Origin: Deltaproteobacteria bacterium
GTDB taxonomy: Bacteria > Myxococcota_A > UBA9160 > UBA4427
DNA length: 64,000 bases
NCBI GenBank assembly: GCA_029261855.1
Contig: JAJDAN010000021.1
Location: 257,923-321,922, forward strand
Direction: 5' to 3'
Position numbers and translations under genes: made by a program. The notes beneath the pieces are model-generated. The model made no database searches. It saw nothing but the letters and a program-made list of their open reading frames with translations, and was not told the DNA's origin. Positions 5,140-50,881 of the stretch are shown here, piece after piece (within the stretch, counting starts at the first letter, position 1; the number at the start of each line of letters is the position of its first letter).

Positions 5140-5883
5140 CTACTGCGTGACGCTGCCCGCGTGCAGCTCGAGGACACCCGGCGGGACGCCGGCGCGGCGC
5201 GCGGCTTCGACCACGCGCGGAAGCCTGGCCTGCTCGGCCGCCAACCGCTGCTTGGCGGTGTCGCGACTGTCGATGAGCTTCTGGCGCGCTTCCCCGCGCG
5301 GGTAGTCGGACTGGATCATGTCGGCGTAGCTCTGGTCCCAGACCTCGACGGTGGCTTCCGCGACATCGACCCGGTGCTTGGCCATGTCGATCCGGGTCGT
5401 CCACAGTCCCCAGCGGTCGCCGGCCGACTCGGACGCGGCCGGCGCGTCGGGGTCGGCGGCGGCGGGCGCGGCATTGGCGCGAGACTGATGCTGCGCGTGG
5501 CGCGCGCGGGCCGCCGCGAGCTTGGCGCGGGCGGCTGTGAGCCGTTGGTCCGCGGTCTCGGGGAGGTGACCCATGCCCGTGAGCCGCTCCGAGTTGACCA
5601 CCCGACCGCGCATCGTCTCACTGCCTTCCTCGTGGTCGTCGATGTTCTCTGCGCTCGCCTCGTGGTTGTCGATGTTCTCGGTGCGACCTTCGTGGTTGTC
5701 GATGTTCTCGGTGTGGCCTTCGTGGTTCTCGATATTCTCGGTGTGTCCCTCGTGGTTCTGGATCTGCTCGCTGGTCGTGATGACCGCGTCGGTCTCCTGG
5801 GGATCGAGGATGGCGTCCTGGGCCAGGGCCATGCCCGACGGCAGCAGGACGAGGGCGACGAGAAGACGAAGGTGCAAGATCAT
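5140..5883 (-). CDS. Secreted hypothetical protein with decapeptide (NHEGHTENIE/D) tandem repeats and coiled-coil C-terminal region
   Basis: Signal-like 'MILHLRLLVALVLLPSGMALAQD' followed by NHEGHTENIE-NHEGHTENID-NHEGRTENID-NHEASAENID; alternative start 5898. Confidence 0.7.
   Translation of the reverse strand: MILHLRLLVALVLLPSGMALAQDAILDPQETDAVITTSEQIQNHEGHTENIENHEGHTENIDNHEGRTENIDNHEASAENIDDHEEGSETMRGRVVNSERLTGMGHLPETADQRLTAARAKLAAARARHAQHQSRANAAPAAADPDAPAASESAGDRWGLWTTRIDMAKHRVDVAEATVEVWDQSYADMIQSDYPRGEARQKLIDSRDTAKQRLAAEQARLPRVVEAARRAGVPPGVLELHAGSVTQ
5631..5760 (-). repeat. In-frame 30-bp tandem repeat, about 4.3 copies
   Basis: Units at 5631-5660, 5661-5690, 5691-5720, 5721-5750 and partial 5751-5760; core cgtggttgtcgatgttctcggtg. 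Confidence 0.92.
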
Positions 5884-6066
5884 GATCGGGGCTCCCATGC
5901 GTGGCCGGAGACGCGAGGTGAAGGCTCGCCATCGCTGGGTCGGCCGCACGCAAGCTGCACTTGAGCCGATTCGCGTGCCAGCGGAACGGTGGCAGCGTGA
6001 GCCGATCGCCCGTCTCCCCGAGCCCCGGTCGTCGGCCCCGGAGCGCGCCCTGCTACGGTTGCCCCG

Positions 6067-7035
6067 ATGAAAGCCGAAGCCCTGCCCCGCCAAATCGTAT
6101 GCGGCCTCGCCTGCCAGGTGTCCGAGGCGGATGGCCGCATCCGACTCGCCGAGACCGATCGCCACACGACGCGGCAGGCCATCGACCTCGCCAGCCGCGC
6201 CAATCTCGGCAGCTCGTCCGGCCACTCGCAGACCAGCGTCGTCTTCGTCCACGTCGTCGACTGGCTGACCGAACGCGCCGCACAGGACGGGCCCGACATC
6301 GTCGAAGCCGTTCGCAGCGAGCTCGCGCCCGACCTCGACGAGATCAGCGCCCACGCCGCCGAGCGCGAGGTGTCGATCCGCCACGAGATGAAGCTGGGAA
6401 GGCCCTGGCGGGAGCTGCTCAAGGTCGCCGATTCCGAGAACGCGGACGTCATCGTCATCAGCCCGCGACGCCAGCGCCAGTCACTCGGCAGCCGCATCTT
6501 CCGCGGGCAGACCGCGACGCGCATCCTGAAGGAATCGACTTGTCCGGTGTGGGTGGTCGAGCCGGAATGCGGGCCCCCGAGGCGAATTCTCTCACTTCTC
6601 GACCTCAGTCCCGTGAGCGAGATGGTCGTCACGGCCGCGCGCGCCCTCGGCGGCCTGTACGGGGCCGAGCTGTACGGGCTGTGCTGTCTCGACTATCCGA
6701 GCGACATCTCCCTGCATCGGCTTCCCAAGGCGCGGGAGGCCATGCAGGCCTACCACCGCGAAGTCCGGACCGATGCCCTCGCCAAGCTCGAGCAACTCAC
6801 GGCAGGCGAAACCAAGTGGAAGCTCCTGCTCGGCGAGGACTGGGTCGGGCGGTTGGCGCCACGGGTCATCGACGAGAAGAAGATCGACCTGGTCGTGATG
6901 GGGGGCGTTTCGAAGCCGCGCCTCGCGGGCGCGCTACTGGGAACGACCGCGCAACGACTGCTCGATCACGTTGCGGTCTCGACGTGGGTGGTCCGGCCCG
7001 AACGCCAGGGCCCCCCACCCCACCGGGACGACTGA
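6067..7035 (+). CDS. Universal stress protein family, tandem Usp domains
   Basis: 'ADVIVISPRRQRQSLGSRIFRGQTATRILKESTCPVWVVEPE' and 'DLVVMGGVSKPRLAGALLGTTAQRLLDHVAVSTWVVRPE'. Confidence 0.85.
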   Translation: MKAEALPRQIVCGLACQVSEADGRIRLAETDRHTTRQAIDLASRANLGSSSGHSQTSVVFVHVVDWLTERAAQDGPDIVEAVRSELAPDLDEISAHAAEREVSIRHEMKLGRPWRELLKVADSENADVIVISPRRQRQSLGSRIFRGQTATRILKESTCPVWVVEPECGPPRRILSLLDLSPVSEMVVTAARALGGLYGAELYGLCCLDYPSDISLHRLPKAREAMQAYHREVRTDALAKLEQLTAGETKWKLLLGEDWVGRLAPRVIDEKKIDLVVMGGVSKPRLAGALLGTTAQRLLDHVAVSTWVVRPERQGPPPHRDD

Positions 7036-9378
7036 GGCGCGCGTCCCGTCCGGGCCAGACGAGCTCGACGAGACACTCGGCACGGACGAGACGGAAGAGA
7101 CCACCGAGCCCGAAGCCGGACGCCAGGCCAGGTAGGAGCAGAGCGCCGGCGTCACCAGTACGTCGACCCCCCAGGCGAAGAACAGCGTCGCCGAGCCGAG
7201 CGCCCCGAACTGCGCCTGGCTGACGAGGTCGCTGGTCGTCAGCACCAGCAACCCGAGGCACAGGGCCGCGGTGGTCCAGGTCACCGGACGACCGACCTGC
7301 GCGAGGGCCGCGGCTGCCGCCGCCCGCGGATCCGTCATCCGCCGGGCGCACTCGCGATGGCGGGAAACGAAGTGCAGCGTGTCGTCGATGGCGATCCCGA
7401 GCACCACGCAGCCGAGCAGCGCGGTCGCGTTGTTCAGGGGGATCCCCGTCACACCGAGCGCGCCGAAGTAGACGGCCACGGGCAGCGCGTTCAGCAGGAC
7501 CGTGAGCGCCGCGAAGCGAAGCGATCGGAACGCGAACGCGAGGATCACGCCGATCAGCGCGAAGGCGACGACGAGGCTGCGCGCCTGGTCGCGCGAGACG
7601 TCGTCGATGGCCCGGGTCAGTAGCGCGCTCCCGCCGGTCACGGTGCCCTCGAGGCGGGTGCCCCCGCGACCCAGGTGCGCTTCGATGCCCGCGACCAGGT
7701 CTCCGACCTCGCGCGACGATGTCGCACGCGAGCGCACGAGCACGACCGTCGCCTGACGCGAACGGTCGAGGATCGGATCGACCGCCTCTCCATCGGCGAG
7801 CCACAACAGCTGGGCGACCAGAGCTCGATTCGATGCGGCCGAGAGCGGCGACGGCCCACCCATCGCGCGGCCGCTGGCTTCGAGATAGTCGACGATGGAC
7901 GTCGTGCCGCCGACCTCGGGACGCGCCTCGAGCCAGCGTTGCAGGGCCGCCACCTCCCGCAGGTTCTCGGGGGAGAGCAGGCTTCCGGGCGTCGGGCCTT
8001 CGAGCCCGACGAACAGCACGTCGGCCCCGTCGAGGCGGTCGTTCAGGCGTTCGTAGCTCTGACGCACCAACGACTCGCCCTTGAAGTTCTCGACGATGCG
8101 CGTGTCGACCTGGATCCGGGTCGCCGCCGCGAGCGATCCGAGAAAGAGCGCAGCCGCCACGGCGAGGATCGGCACCCGATGGCGCAAGGAGAAGGCACCG
8201 AGCCACTCGAAGCCGCGGTCGATCCGGCCCTCGCGCGCCTCGATGGCTGGGGGGAGTCGCATGGGGGAGATTGCCAGTACCGCCGGCGTGAAGGTCAGGG
8301 CCGCGAGCAGGGACGCCATCACCCCCGCCGCACCGAAGGCGCCGAATTCGCGGATCGCGGCATGGGCGCTGATCCCGAGCGACAGGAACCCCGCCGCAGT
8401 CGTGACGGCAGTCAGGGCGATGGGGAACGCGATGGCGGCGAGTCCCGTCGCGTGCGCCCCCGCGCGTCCGCGGCGTGCCAGGGTCTGGGCCTCGGCGACC
8501 ACGTGGATCGTGTACGCGAAGCCCACCACCAGGATCAGCGGTGGCACGATGCTCGTCACGATGTTGATCGGCCGCCCGGCCCAGCCCATCGCGCCGAGGG
8601 TCCAGACGAGGGCCAGCGCGATGGTCGCGACGGGCAGCCAGGCGCCGGTTGCCGTGCGGAAGACCGCGAACGACACGAGCATCATGATCGCGAGCACCAG
8701 TGGCACCTGACTCGCGAGCTCGCTGTTGAGGATGCGGTTCATCTCGGCCTTGAGGAACGGAGCGCCGGCGATCCACACGGGCCAACCCGGGGCAGCATCG
8801 CGCGCCACGGCCTCCATGCGCCTTCCGAGATCTGCCTCGAGCAGCTCGATCTCGCCGATGGGCTCGAGGGACACGTGAAGCGCGGCGAGGCCGCCGTCCG
8901 GCGACACGAGAACGCCCCGGTAGAGCGGGTCCCCAGTGATCGCCCGGCGGGCGCGGTCGAGCGGTCCTTCGCCGCGGCGGGCCTCGTCGAGCAGGGAGCT
9001 CGCGAGCAGCTCGTCTTCCGGGCCGCCCGCGAGCGGGACGCTGGCGATGCTCCGCACCGATGCGACTTCGGGGATCTCCCGCAGGCGCGCCTCGAGCTGC
9101 GCGATGACGCCGAGGGCCTCGAGAGAGAAGACGCCACCCGGCGGCTCGACGGCCACGATGAACGACTCGCCGGTGTCGAAGCGCGCCTGCAGTGCCTCGT
9201 ACTCGAGGCGGCCCGCATCGTCCTCCGGCAGCAGCTTCTCGAAGGACGGGTCGATGCGGAGCCGGGGCGCCCCGGTCCAGGGGTCGACCAGCCCGCAGAT
9301 CGCGAGCCCGGTCAGCGCGACCACGCCGGCGAGCACGCTGCGCGGGTAGCGGGTACTGAAGAGAACCAGTCGCGTCAC
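6934..9378 (-). CDS. MMPL/RND-family transporter
   Basis: 814 aa, duplicated TM domains, 'LFSTRYPRSVLAGVVALTGLAI', 'FEKLLPEDDAGRLEYEALQARFDTGESFIVAV', two large periplasmic loops. Confidence 0.9.
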   Translation of the reverse strand: MTRLVLFSTRYPRSVLAGVVALTGLAICGLVDPWTGAPRLRIDPSFEKLLPEDDAGRLEYEALQARFDTGESFIVAVEPPGGVFSLEALGVIAQLEARLREIPEVASVRSIASVPLAGGPEDELLASSLLDEARRGEGPLDRARRAITGDPLYRGVLVSPDGGLAALHVSLEPIGEIELLEADLGRRMEAVARDAAPGWPVWIAGAPFLKAEMNRILNSELASQVPLVLAIMMLVSFAVFRTATGAWLPVATIALALVWTLGAMGWAGRPINIVTSIVPPLILVVGFAYTIHVVAEAQTLARRGRAGAHATGLAAIAFPIALTAVTTAAGFLSLGISAHAAIREFGAFGAAGVMASLLAALTFTPAVLAISPMRLPPAIEAREGRIDRGFEWLGAFSLRHRVPILAVAAALFLGSLAAATRIQVDTRIVENFKGESLVRQSYERLNDRLDGADVLFVGLEGPTPGSLLSPENLREVAALQRWLEARPEVGGTTSIVDYLEASGRAMGGPSPLSAASNRALVAQLLWLADGEAVDPILDRSRQATVVLVRSRATSSREVGDLVAGIEAHLGRGGTRLEGTVTGGSALLTRAIDDVSRDQARSLVVAFALIGVILAFAFRSLRFAALTVLLNALPVAVYFGALGVTGIPLNNATALLGCVVLGIAIDDTLHFVSRHRECARRMTDPRAAAAAALAQVGRPVTWTTAALCLGLLVLTTSDLVSQAQFGALGSATLFFAWGVDVLVTPALCSYLAWRPASGSVVSSVSSVPSVSSSSSGPDGTRASVVPVGWGALAFGPDHPRRDRNVIEQSLRGRSQ

Positions 9379-22558: not shown

Positions 22559-22634
22559 TGGAGCGCGAGACGAGGTTCGAACTCGCGACCCCGAGCTTGG
22601 GAAGCTCGTGCTCTACCAACTGAGCTACTCGCGC
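22559..22634 (-). tRNA. tRNA-Gly(CCC)
   Basis: Cloverleaf on the minus strand: GCGCGAG TA GCTC AGTTGGTA GAGC A CGAGC TTCCCAA GCTCG GGGTC GCGAG TTCGAAC CTCGT CTCGCGC T CCA; 7-bp acceptor, U73, encoded CCA. Confidence 0.95.
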
Positions 22635-22654
22635 ATCCGGGGCGCAGGCTAGCA
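22594..22654. repeat. 61-bp direct repeat, copy 1 (tRNA-Gly 5' part plus upstream flank)
   Basis: About 57/61 identical to 23994-24054 by eye. Confidence 0.9.
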
Positions 22655-22758
22655 AACGGACGGCCCTCGCGGCTCCTCCTTGCGTCTCGAGCCTTCACTT
22701 TCGTCGCACCTTCGCTACCCTCCCCGAACCCCATGGCCCCGGTCCCGAGGGCCGCACA

Positions 22759-23943
22759 ATGACCGACCGTCCCCTTCCGGACCGCGCCGACGCGCAGAGC
22801 CTGGCACCTGCGCCCAGCCACCCGTCGGCCCGCGACACCTTCCCGAACCCGCCTTTCCGGGACTACTGGCCGGCCGTCGAGGCCCATCTCCGCTTCACCA
22901 CCCAGGACACCGGCAGCGTCGAGAACTACGTCGTCTGCTGGCGCGAGGTCGAAGCCCTCGACGACCCGCTCTTCGGCCGGCTCGGCGACCTGCCCCTGCG
23001 CGCCTGGACCCGCACCACTGCCGTTCGGACGCTTGCCGCCCTGTCCGACAAGACGGGCGGCGAGCCGCGTTCGCTCTCGACGTTGTCCTGCAAGGTCAAC
23101 GCCATGGCCGCGGTCTTCCGCCGCGCGTCCCACGACCGGCATCCCCTCACCGACGAGCCGCTCTTCTCCCGCCCGAATCCCTTCCGCGCCAAGATGACGC
23201 TGCTGCGCGAGGTGTTCGGGAATCGCGAGCTGATCGCCCGCACGTCTCCACACGAGGTGCGCCCGTACACGCGCGACGAGCTCAACCGCCTGCTCGCGAT
23301 CACGCGCAACCGCAGCCGCTGCGATCATCTGATCCTGCTTCTGTGCGCGCGCTGTGGCTTGCGACGATCGGAGGCGATCGGGCTTTGCTGGGACGATCTC
23401 AATGCGACAGCGCGCAGCCTGTCGGTCCGGCGCAAGGCCAGCAAACCGCGCAACGTCGCCGTACGCGTGTCGAGCCAACTCAAGACCGAGAACTCGCGCC
23501 GCACCCTGCCCGTCCCGTCCGACGCCTGGCAGGGAGTCCTGCTGTGGCAGGAGCACTGCGTCCTCCAGGCATCGCTAGGCGCCAGTCCCTATACCCGCTA
23601 CCAGCAGCCGAGCCGGCGAACGGCGCCCCACGAGCCGAGTCCGTACTTGTTTCCGCCGCGCCGGCCGGCGAACACGACGGCACCAGTGCTCGACCCCGAC
23701 GCCTGGGCGGGACGCCTCAAGACCGATCTCGCGAAGGCCGGCATCGACCTCGCCGGCCGGCGGCACTTCGCCCACAACCTGCGCCACACCTACGCGAGCG
23801 ATCTCCTCGCGCGCGGTGCCGATCTCGTCCAGGTCGCGAAGCTCCTCGGCGATACGCTGGCCGTCGCAGAGGAGTGCTATGCCCACCTCGTCCAGAGCAC
23901 CAGGCTGCGCGAACTCGCAGACAGCCTGTCGGAAGACATCTGA
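22759..23943 (+). CDS. Tyrosine recombinase/integrase
   Basis: 394 aa; 'CARCGLRRSEAIGLCWDDL' and 'HNLRHTYASDLLARGADLVQVAKLLGDTLAVAEECYAHL' (R..HxxR..Y catalytic pattern). Confidence 0.95.
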   Translation: MTDRPLPDRADAQSLAPAPSHPSARDTFPNPPFRDYWPAVEAHLRFTTQDTGSVENYVVCWREVEALDDPLFGRLGDLPLRAWTRTTAVRTLAALSDKTGGEPRSLSTLSCKVNAMAAVFRRASHDRHPLTDEPLFSRPNPFRAKMTLLREVFGNRELIARTSPHEVRPYTRDELNRLLAITRNRSRCDHLILLLCARCGLRRSEAIGLCWDDLNATARSLSVRRKASKPRNVAVRVSSQLKTENSRRTLPVPSDAWQGVLLWQEHCVLQASLGASPYTRYQQPSRRTAPHEPSPYLFPPRRPANTTAPVLDPDAWAGRLKTDLAKAGIDLAGRRHFAHNLRHTYASDLLARGADLVQVAKLLGDTLAVAEECYAHLVQSTRLRELADSLSEDI

Positions 23944-23973
23944 TGCGAGCGACGCCAGCAGCGAAAGCGCGTG

Positions 23974-24034
23974 GGTGCGAGTGTTCAACCAGAAGCTTGG
24001 GAAGCTGATGCTCTACCAACTGAGCTACTCGCGC
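23974..24034 (-). pseudogene. Degenerate tRNA-Gly copy (T-arm deleted)
   Basis: D-arm and anticodon loop (TTCCCAA) identical to the tRNA at 22559; about 12 nt missing in the T-arm, mispaired anticodon stem, no proper discriminator. Confidence 0.75.
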
Positions 24035-24054
24035 ATCCGCGGCGCAAGCTAGCA
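23994..24054. repeat. 61-bp direct repeat, copy 2
   Basis: agcttgggaagctgatgctctaccaactgagctactcgcgcatccgcggcgcaagctagca, exactly 1400 bp from copy 1. Confidence 0.9.
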
Positions 24055-24100
24055 CACGCCTCTCGGTGCAACAGACGAGGCCTGGCGGCTAGGAGGCCGA

Positions 24101-24159: not shown

Positions 24160-24570
24160 CTAGCGCCGGCGGCGAAGCCGCCAGATCAGGACGCCGACGC
24201 CTGAGAGAAACAAGCCGATGGCCCCGGGCTCGGGGATCGCGGTGGCGACTCGCCGGGGCTGCGTGCCCGGCGCGGCTCGTCCGGCGGATTGGATCTCCAG
24301 CGGGGCTCCCGGCGGGACTTCGGTGACAGGAGTCCCGCCGGCGGCGGATGCCAGCACCGACGTCTCGAGCGCGGCATGCACGACCTCGATCGAATCGGGC
24401 CCGGCTCCGGTGCCGCCCGTTCCGCCAGACACGCGCGTGTCGACGACGACGACGACCTCCGACCCGTCGTTGTCCTTCTTCTTCGTGTCGCCGGTGGAAA
24501 AGCGGCAGGTCGTGCCGCCGCAGAGCGCGACGGACGACAGCAAGACGAGGAAGACGAAGTAGCGAGGCAC
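24160..24570 (-). CDS. PEP-CTERM sorting-domain protein
   Basis: Signal peptide and C-terminal 'IPEPGAIGLFLSGVGVLIWRLRRRR'; GTG start. Confidence 0.85.
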   Translation of the reverse strand: MPRYFVFLVLLSSVALCGGTTCRFSTGDTKKKDNDGSEVVVVVDTRVSGGTGGTGAGPDSIEVVHAALETSVLASAAGGTPVTEVPPGAPLEIQSAGRAAPGTQPRRVATAIPEPGAIGLFLSGVGVLIWRLRRRR

Positions 24571-24686: not shown

Positions 24687-25955
24687 CTACTCCTCGATCA
24701 GCTCGACGAAGAGATCTTCGATCTCGTCGCCGGTACTCGAGATCTCGTCCGAGAAGGCGACGCGTGTCGCCTCGGCGGTGGTGGGCCGGGCGGAGTTCGA
24801 GGTCGCGAAGATCGGCAGGTCGTCTGTCAGGTCTCCCAGGCCCGAGTCGATCTCGGCGTCCAGGTTGCGTGCGCCGGCGGCGACGGGCGGGGCCTCGTCG
24901 TCCATGCTGATGACCGTCAGGTCGCCGTCGTCACCCCCCGAGTCGAGCAGCGAGCTGAGGTCGACGTCGTCTTCATCGCCGGGAGCGGCGACTGTCGACA
25001 GCTCCAACGCGGAGTCCTCGTTCGGATCGCTCGCGACACCCATGCGAGGGGCCGCCGACGCACTCGCAACGGGCGCCGCAGCAGCCGCCGCGGAGCCCGT
25101 GGGAATGCGCGCCTCGGGGATCTGCGAGTAGGTCGTCCCTGGGTCCGAGCCGACGCCCAGGTCTCCCGCCGACCGCTCGACGTGGACCGCATCCACCTGC
25201 TTCTGGCCCTCGAGGTAGGCCTCGAAGAGCGCGTTGTCGGCGAGGGTGTTCAGGAGGCGGGGCCGGCCGCGTCCCAGCTTGAAGAGCGCAGAGACAGCAG
25301 CCTCGCTGAAGAGGTCGGCGCTGCCGCCCACCACCGAGAGCCGGTGCGACAAATAGGCGCGGGTGTTCACCAGATCGAGGGGCGCCAGCTGGACCCGCAC
25401 GTCGACACGTGCACTGAGAGACGGGTCGTGGGACAAGGTGACGTCGAGCCCGGGCACCCCCACCAGCAGCAACGAGAGCAGGCGACGGTCTTCGTACTCG
25501 AGATTGAGCAGGCCGCAGACCTCCGCCATAGCCTCGCGCGAGAGGATGTGAGCGTCGTCGAGGATGAGCACCGTGTGGCGACCGTCTTCTCGCACGATCG
25601 CCAGCTGTTCGTAGAGCTGCGCAAGTAGCGACGAGCGGTCTTCGGACGGGTCGTCGACGCCGACCTGCCGCGCAAAGCGACCCAGCACGGACCGGGCGTC
25701 GGACGCGCCCGCGAGCATCACCATCAGGTTCGCGTCGAACATCTCCTCCTCGAGGCTGTCGAGGATGCGGCGCGCGAGCAGGGTCTTGCCCGTCCCGCCC
25801 TCCCCGGTGAGCACGCACAGGCCCTTGGCCTGGCGCAGGCCGCGCTCCATGCGCAGCTGGGCGTCCCGGTGATTGGCGCTGTCGACATAGAAGCGCAGGT
25901 CCGGCTCGTTCTGGAACGGATCCTGGTTCAAGTTGAAGTGATGCAGGTGCTCCAC
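24687..25955 (-). CDS. ExeA/GspA-like AAA ATPase
   Basis: 'FNLNQDPFQNEPDLRFYVDSANHRDAQLRMERGLRQAKGLCVLTGEGGTGKTLLARRIL' Walker A; 'VLILDDAH' Walker B; acidic C-terminal tail. Confidence 0.85.
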   Translation of the reverse strand: MEHLHHFNLNQDPFQNEPDLRFYVDSANHRDAQLRMERGLRQAKGLCVLTGEGGTGKTLLARRILDSLEEEMFDANLMVMLAGASDARSVLGRFARQVGVDDPSEDRSSLLAQLYEQLAIVREDGRHTVLILDDAHILSREAMAEVCGLLNLEYEDRRLLSLLLVGVPGLDVTLSHDPSLSARVDVRVQLAPLDLVNTRAYLSHRLSVVGGSADLFSEAAVSALFKLGRGRPRLLNTLADNALFEAYLEGQKQVDAVHVERSAGDLGVGSDPGTTYSQIPEARIPTGSAAAAAAPVASASAAPRMGVASDPNEDSALELSTVAAPGDEDDVDLSSLLDSGGDDGDLTVISMDDEAPPVAAGARNLDAEIDSGLGDLTDDLPIFATSNSARPTTAEATRVAFSDEISSTGDEIEDLFVELIEE

Positions 25956-40258: not shown

Positions 40259-41617
40259 ATGGCACAACGCATCCTGATCGTCGACGACGACGAGGCCCTT
40301 CGAGAGAGCCTCGAGCTCGTGCTCGCGTCCGAGGGCTACGACGTGTCGGCGGCGGATTGCGGGGAAGCCGCCCTCGCCCGCATCGAAGAGCATCCCGTCG
40401 ACGTCGTGCTGTGTGACCTGCGCATGCCCGGCATCGACGGCTTCGAGCTGATGCCGCAGATCGGACGACAGCTTCCCGGCGTTCCCATCGTGCTGATGTC
40501 CGCCTACGGGACCGAAGATCTCGCCGTCGAAGCCATGCGCCGCGGTGCGTACGACTATCTCGCCAAGCCCTTCCAGCCCACAGAGGTCGTGCTGACGCTT
40601 CGCAAGGCCTACGAGCGCGAGAAGCTCCGCAAGGCCAACGAGCTGCTGCAACGAGACGTCCAACGCGCCGTCGGCGACCGCCCCATCGTCGCAGCGTCCA
40701 AGCCCATGATCGAGCTGCTCGAGCTGCTCGAACGAACCGCCGCCTACAAGACCACCGCGTTGCTGACGGGCGAAAGCGGTACGGGCAAGGAAGTGCTCGC
40801 CCGAGCGATCCACGCGCAGTCACCGCGCAGAGAAGAATCCTTCGTCGCGGTCAATTGCGGTGCGATCCCGGAGAACCTGCTCGAGAGCGAGCTGTTCGGG
40901 CACGCGAAGGGGGCGTTCACCGGCGCCGCACGCGCACGCCGTGGACTCTTCGTCGAGGCGAGCGGCGGCTCGATCTTCCTGGACGAGATCGGAGAGCTTC
41001 CCCAGGCGCTCCAGGTCAAGTTGCTGCGCGTCCTCCAGGAAGAAGAAGTCCGTCCGGTGGGCGAGAGCAAGGCCCAGCAGGTGGACGTCCGGGTCATCGC
41101 GGCCACCTCGCGGGACCTCGAGAGCGAGATCGCAGGCGGTCGTTTCCGAGAGGACCTCTACTACCGGCTCAACGTGATGCACCTGCAGGTCCCGCCCCTG
41201 CGCGAGCGCCGCGAGGACATCCCCCTCCTGACGGACCACTTCCTCGATCACTTCCGCACCCTTCTCGCCAAGCCGGTGCGGACGCTCACCGACGATGCCC
41301 TGGAACGCCTGTCCAGCTACGCCTGGCCGGGGAACGTGCGCGAACTCGAGAACGTCATCGAGCGCGCAGTGATCCTTGCGGATACGGACCGCATCACGCT
41401 CCAGAATCTCCCCGAGACCATCGTCTCCGCGATCGGCGAGCACGGCGGAGACCCGGCCTCCTTCTCCTTGAAGCGCGCGAAGCGCGCCGTGGAAGCCGAC
41501 ACCATCCGCCGCGCCCTGACCGCGACCGACGGAAACCGTACGCACGCAGCGAAGCTGCTCGAAATCAGTCACCGAGCTCTGCTCTACAAGATCAAGGAGT
41601 TCGGACTACGCGACTGA
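40259..41617 (+). CDS. Sigma-54-dependent response regulator (NtrC family)
   Basis: 'RILIVDDDEALRESLELVL', 'GESGTGKEVLARAIHAQS', 'ELFGHAKGAFTGA', C-terminal Fis HTH. Confidence 0.97.
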   Translation: MAQRILIVDDDEALRESLELVLASEGYDVSAADCGEAALARIEEHPVDVVLCDLRMPGIDGFELMPQIGRQLPGVPIVLMSAYGTEDLAVEAMRRGAYDYLAKPFQPTEVVLTLRKAYEREKLRKANELLQRDVQRAVGDRPIVAASKPMIELLELLERTAAYKTTALLTGESGTGKEVLARAIHAQSPRREESFVAVNCGAIPENLLESELFGHAKGAFTGAARARRGLFVEASGGSIFLDEIGELPQALQVKLLRVLQEEEVRPVGESKAQQVDVRVIAATSRDLESEIAGGRFREDLYYRLNVMHLQVPPLRERREDIPLLTDHFLDHFRTLLAKPVRTLTDDALERLSSYAWPGNVRELENVIERAVILADTDRITLQNLPETIVSAIGEHGGDPASFSLKRAKRAVEADTIRRALTATDGNRTHAAKLLEISHRALLYKIKEFGLRD

Positions 41618-50527: not shown

Positions 50528-50881
50528 ATGGAAGCATCCAACCGGCGCTCGGGAATCCTGCGAAAGGCGATCTCGTTCGCGGCCGCCACGGCTCTGGTCG
50601 TGGGATGGGTGGGCCTCGCGGGCGCCCAGGGTCGCAGCATGACCGGCAAAGATTTCCTCGAAGCGAAGAACGCCGATGCGATGACGCTGCAGATCGACGA
50701 CCTGGTCGTACACGTCACGGACGACACGCTCATCTACAACGGCGACGACAACAAGCGGATGAAGTTCGAGTCGATCCCCGACCCCGCCAAGGAATCGGTC
50801 GTCGTGGAGTACTCGGGCCGCGCATCCGGCAAGAACGAGATGATCGCCCGGCGCCTGGTGGTGAAGATCGCGCCTCGATAG
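50528..50881 (+). CDS. Small secreted hypothetical protein
   Basis: 117 aa with signal peptide 'ISFAAATALVVGWVGLAGAQG'; RBS-like aaggag upstream. Confidence 0.7.
   Translation: MEASNRRSGILRKAISFAAATALVVGWVGLAGAQGRSMTGKDFLEAKNADAMTLQIDDLVVHVTDDTLIYNGDDNKRMKFESIPDPAKESVVVEYSGRASGKNEMIARRLVVKIAPR

Follow-up and report, generated by a model that had tools for sequence, protein, structure and literature searches.

How did a tyrosine recombinase gene come to lie between two direct copies of part of a tRNA-Gly(CCC) gene? The question is raised by a locus in the 64,000-nucleotide stretch of deltaproteobacterial DNA analyzed here (the window), for which an earlier note had proposed a minimal integrating unit, or else a remnant, that carries a replacement tRNA 5′ half. 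Our best explanation, which we consider very probable, is a reverse-polarity insertion of a tyrosine-recombinase element of ~1400 bp into the anticodon stem-loop of tRNA-Gly(CCC). Its parts would be the integrase gene, an att site, and, between the divergent genes, an intergenic region of 124 bp. By recombining with the anticodon stem-loop in reversed polarity, it would displace the host's own leader and 5′ half as a fragment beside the neighboring AAA-ATPase gene, and the 5′ half and leader that it supplies would make the tRNA gene whole again.

The repeat, the two tRNA copies, and the integrase

The features of the locus, in window coordinates, are as follows.

22559–22634, minus strand: intact tRNA-Gly(CCC), anticodon stem CGAGC/GCTCG; 3′ flank host-like, 5′ half apparently element-derived
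22594–22658: direct repeat copy 1 (core, tRNA 5′ half, and leader)
22597–22603, minus strand: anticodon loop TTCCCAA, the putative site of strand exchange at the element's tRNA end
22635–22758, minus strand: intergenic region brought by the element, from which the tRNA and integrase genes diverge; kept in the second carrier
22759–23943, plus strand: tyrosine recombinase (integrase), 394 aa, the element's only gene
23944–23993: spacer from the integrase stop to the second core; its counterpart in the other carrier measures 17 bp
23994–24058: direct repeat copy 2
23994–24034, minus strand: displaced host tRNA-Gly 5′ half, with arm TCAGC and loop, then the element's GCTTC
24160–24570, minus strand: host flank, PEP-CTERM protein gene, with a homologue in the same-genus relative G001 (locus L024)
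24687–25955, minus strand: host flank, AAA-ATPase gene, an order-wide conserved neighbor of tRNA-Gly(CCC)

The direct repeat had been described as 61 bp long with a period of exactly 1400 bp, and this holds, with 57 of the 61 positions identical (four mismatches). The full repeat extends to 65 bp, of which 60 are identical in an ungapped alignment at the same spacing of 1400, and it takes in the tRNA-Gly(CCC) leader and 5′ half. Against the loci the repeat gives a BLAST E-value of 2e-20, so the match is not a chance one; the 5′ half scores 40/40, and the maximum with shuffled queries is 15.

The intact tRNA-Gly(CCC) claimed at this locus is called by ARAGORN at 22559–22634 on the minus strand and is the sole tRNA called in the window. 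The second copy receives no ARAGORN call and barely passes the Rfam tRNA model (30.9 bits against a cut-off of 29). It had been taken for a T-arm-deleted tRNA, a description that has to be given up: The copy is a 5′-half fragment that ends at the anticodon stem-loop and whose 3′ side is not tRNA-like. In the window, tRNA similarity ends at the anticodon stem, where AAGCT is followed by TCTGG. We also rejected a full tRNA copy minus its T-arm because the corresponding fragment in the second carrier (L036) meets the integrase stop 17 bp past the core.

The fragment's leader in the window resembles the leader of G001 (CGTGTGCTAGC). The two leaders inside the window have three mismatches over the 24 bp of shared leader and are more alike to each other than the fragment's leader is to that of G001; the element therefore did not have a distant source, unless homogenization made the copies alike, and this weighs against our best explanation. 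Such similar leaders would also be expected if the tRNA 5′ half had been duplicated locally in tandem and an unrelated integrase lay between the copies by chance. This reading is already contradicted by a homologous integrase in the same arrangement in a second genome, and both parts are missing at empty sites; we regard it as exceedingly improbable.

The gene between the repeats encodes a tyrosine recombinase, as proposed (PF00589, E = 3e-15), and is present in a single copy in the 6.96-Mb genome. Its reading frame is full length and free of stops and ends 50 bp before the second core. The catalytic residues GLR202, H339-x-x-R342 (HNLR, 339–342), and Y374 align with those of XerD. The LGH motif of tyrosine recombinases holds the second catalytic His; in both known integrases of this kind LGD365 replaces it (window 23851–23853), with neither His nor Trp at the second active-site position, which also counts against our best explanation. 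An AlphaFold model built from the two sequences was too poor for use (mean pLDDT, 39.6). Among phages and plasmids there are no relatives of the integrase above ~32% identity, and a search of IMG/VR with a profile of the integrase pair returned none.

The integrase fills the interval from repeat to repeat, leaving no room for a further gene: We found no structural, relaxase, or replication genes inside the element, the genes by which a prophage, ICE, or IME would be recognized. The second carrier retains the intergenic region (TGCTAGCCT close to the tRNA), with a score of 83 against a shuffle maximum of 59.5. Sigma-70 and terminator scans gave no matches.

Empty sites and a second carrier

The AAA-ATPase gene has a homologue in 59 of 61 genomes and is therefore a good anchor for the site. 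In most relatives checked, one tRNA-Gly(CCC) lies downstream from this gene on the same strand, in some of them ~60–100 bp away. The same-genus relative G001 (L024) has, in order, the AAA gene, the PEP-CTERM gene, a membrane-protein gene, and a single tRNA-Gly(CCC), without the integrase. This is the empty site, with one tRNA-Gly and no insert, that the earlier note had proposed to look for in related genomes, and others are found across the order. The integrase was absent from all 60 relatives in a first search, and the element is missing from 89 of the 91 class genomes, among them the nearest relatives of each carrier; carriers make up two of the 91 class genomes and two of 377 in the phylum. 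No relative examined carries both tRNA copies minus the integrase, nor is the integrase a core gene with unrelated flanks, the two patterns that the note had set against its own reading. The nearest approach is G010, in which a much decayed 5′ fragment lies beside 11 kb of other genes.

A 5′-fragment search of 18 intervals between the AAA gene and the tRNA found only the two carriers and G010. The G010 fragment (L028, 11410–11446) is a decayed tRNA-Gly 5′ half of 37 nt with 84% identity, at a distance of 1.3 kb from the AAA gene; the intact tRNA follows after ~11 kb of genes, metabolic ones among them, and no integrase was found there. It is probably an older reverse-polarity insertion. In G029, 9 kb separates the AAA gene and the tRNA, with no 5′ fragment found. 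In G012 (L070, 3250–3555) and G053 (L080, 4988–5515), other integrase-like genes lie 3′ of this same tRNA. The 3′ side of a tRNA is where usual-polarity insertions would place integrase genes, and the tRNA-Gly(CCC) site looks like a hotspot for both polarities.

The second carrier, Myxococcota IP29b_bin.147 (G088, locus L036), belongs to another family of the same order. It was the single relative found in a pattern scan of 85,462 GTDB species genomes and was also found by the class search. Its locus contains the AAA gene, the 5′ tRNA fragment (7220–7260), the integrase (6025–7203), and the intact tRNA-Gly(CCC) (5827–5902), with a repeat spacing of 1358 and no gene besides the integrase, in the same place as the window element. 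The proposal of an integrating unit or remnant with a replacement tRNA 5′ half thus draws its support from the empty sites, from the rarity of carriers in the phylum, and from the same layout in a second family.

The two integrases are 73% identical over 392 aa. Between them dN is ~0.21 and dS ~1.05, which, for this pair of sequences, indicates that the integrase is under purifying selection. Nine syntenic host genes compared between the window genome and G088 are 39%–71% identical, all of them below the integrase, and transfer is therefore favored: On these identities, horizontal transfer appears more likely than shared descent. Under a single entry into the common ancestor of the order, followed by loss through clean excision almost everywhere, both carriers would be expected to hold the element at the same site, as they do, and the 73% of the integrase is close to the 71% of the best-conserved syntenic genes. 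However, it would take dozens of losses to account for the absences across the class, which extend to the nearest relatives of each carrier, and all nine syntenic genes fall short of the integrase; we judge such a vertical relic distinctly improbable.

We searched IMG/VR with a pattern for the predicted attP, GAGCACGAGCTTCCCAAGCTTG. It matched one contig, IMGVR_UViG_3300037071_006363 (L088), a phage contig with terminase genes whose site is the 5′ half of tRNA-Gly(CCC) with arms CGAGC-TTCCCAA-GCTTG. The site lies closely behind an integrase domain, on its C-terminal side and in the same orientation, an arrangement like that of the window element. In contrast to the window element, L088 is a phage, its integrase belongs to a different subfamily and shows no close kinship with the window integrase, and its reading frame crosses the site. 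This frame (15–1370) continues past the tRNA-Gly 5′-half site and encodes an HTH_17 (excisionase-like) domain beyond it, from which integration would separate the integrase. A broader pattern found 50 stretches, and among them T-arm-less 5′ halves in L088, L102, L106, L110, and L136. Contig IMGVR_UViG_3300034072_001527 has an intact tRNA-Gly(CCC) (L112, ~58–82) and 5′ halves at 40358–40382 (L136) and 50746–50770 (L102), all in the same orientation, which suggests a tandem array of two reverse-polarity elements of ~40 and 10 kb. Since viral contigs carry 5′ halves of tRNA-Gly(CCC), reverse-polarity use is not confined to the window.

These contigs also bear on whether the window element is a decayed remnant, in which a larger prophage or integrative element of reverse polarity would have lost everything except an integrase that now moves nothing. 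The hotspot character of the site (the decayed fragment and 11 kb in G010, the 9 kb in G029), the viral contigs with 5′ tRNA-Gly fragments, and the Asp in place of the second catalytic His would all fit such a history. Yet the carriers, in different families, are nearly equal in size (1400 and 1358 bp), each hold just this one gene, and agree in a conserved intergenic region, and the integrase is full length, stop-free, and under purifying selection. That both decayed independently to one minimal form is unlikely, although both could descend from an already reduced element. We treat a remnant as a serious contender, if on balance a doubtful one. Neither an excised circle nor an attP junction was observed; the element may still be able to excise and move.

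Polarity, probable crossover point, and the swapped anticodon stem

On the AAA side, the fragment has a host-like leader, arm TCAGC, loop TTCCCAA, and then GCTTC in the window or GCTTG in L036, with no tRNA sequence beyond; the intact copy reads CGAGC-TTCCCAA-GCTCG. Both displaced fragments share the TCAGC arm with non-carriers from the window's family, and in both the likeness to a tRNA stops after AAGCT. Since it stops at the anticodon stem-loop, we infer that the crossover took place there, most plausibly within the 7-bp loop TTCCCAA, which has AGC/GCT arms on either side. The excised site would read CGAGC-TTCCCAA-GCTT(C/G), preceded by the tRNA 5′ half and leader.

All non-carriers read in the window's family have the stem TCAGC/GCTGA or TTAGC/GCTAA, whereas both carriers have CGAGC/GCTCG. 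The CGAGC arm is explained by a loop crossover. The GCTCG arm is not: A simple loop crossover predicts CGAGC/GCTGA, so that the observed arm calls for either a longer exchange or a pair of compensatory changes afterwards. We rejected a crossover located upstream of the anticodon arm, in which the element would bring TCAGC; it fits G088 and its sister G089 and fails for the window because every non-carrier read in that family has TCAGC or TTAGC. A further point against our reading is that in G089 the CGAGC/GCTCG stem is present although integrase and fragment are both missing (L068, 10923–10998), which may be the scar of element loss via recombination between the repeats or an independent change.

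The mismatch at the GCTCG arm is where delivery of a whole tRNA has its appeal: The element could have borne a complete CGAGC/GCTCG tRNA-Gly(CCC), or the exchange could have extended deeper into the 3′ half. In neither arm of its anticodon stem does the intact tRNA match the same-genus type, and over its 76 nt it shares 97% identity with the tRNA of G089, 96% with that of G088, and 87% with that of G001. However, the sequence 3′ of the window tRNA is similar to the native flanks in relatives, a search for a host 3′ half left over found none, and T-stem variants like that of the window are present in its own family (G019). We think it unlikely that a whole tRNA arrived.

Returning to the loop insertion, a bolder extension would make the 1.36–1.40-kb integrase-only unit mobile in its own right, passing between families and rewriting the tRNA that it targets: It would bring the CGAGC arm, the host 3′ side would be selected to GCTCG, and later loss between the repeats would leave a swapped-stem scar, as in G089. 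This is speculative, and we rate it as rather improbable.

Known systems and what the element would mean

Reversed target orientation at tRNA genes was reportedly described by Zhao and Williams in 2002 (cited in PMC6563490). The sharing of a tRNA 5′ half, which the earlier note called unusual, does belong to a minority class; it is also already documented, in ~4% of mapped tRNA-gene islands. Out of 3919 islands in Islander, 3760 have 3′ and 159 have 5′ tDNA fragments, and 2083 have anticodon-centered sites; candidates <2 kb are rejected under a length filter of 2–200 kb (PMC4383910). Integration at the 5′ region is considerably rarer (PMC6563490). Like Islander-class 5′-fragment islands, the window locus has an intact tDNA, a 5′ fragment upstream in the same orientation, a tyrosine integrase between them, and empty sites in relatives. 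It differs in being 1.4 kb and cargo-free, outside a length range that reflects a database filter and not biology.

As with tyrosine integrases that use the anticodon loop (site A), the tRNA likeness of the two ends does not extend past the anticodon stem-loop, in which symmetric arms flank a loop of 7 bp; cleavage at the loop borders would be predicted for the window element, and the boundaries of similarity agree. Archaeal pTN3-like integrases use as att site a 41-bp 5′ half of tRNA-Leu and part the tRNA from its promoter; their gene is split by integration, and their active site is R..K..AxxR..Y (PMC5495485, PMC8371274). The window element likewise has a tRNA 5′ half as its att site and a restored tRNA without its original promoter. 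In contrast, it is bacterial, its integrase gene is unsplit and has HxxR (HNLR) in place of AxxR, and it has no plasmid cargo. We found no description of integrase-only units of ~1.4 kb at tRNA genes in the open literature, which is not proof of absence. What is new here is the integrase-only size, the recurrence in a second family, and the swapped anticodon stem in both carriers.

Integrase-only elements of ~1.4 kb fall out of the Islander survey because of its lower size limit. A unit of one gene and one att site would rank among the smallest integrating elements and would be a clean system for the minimal needs of a tyrosine recombinase for movement. Its reversed polarity places the tRNA under an element-borne leader, from which the tRNA is presumably expressed, and with the swapped anticodon stem in both carriers, the cost of such an insertion and its repair become testable.
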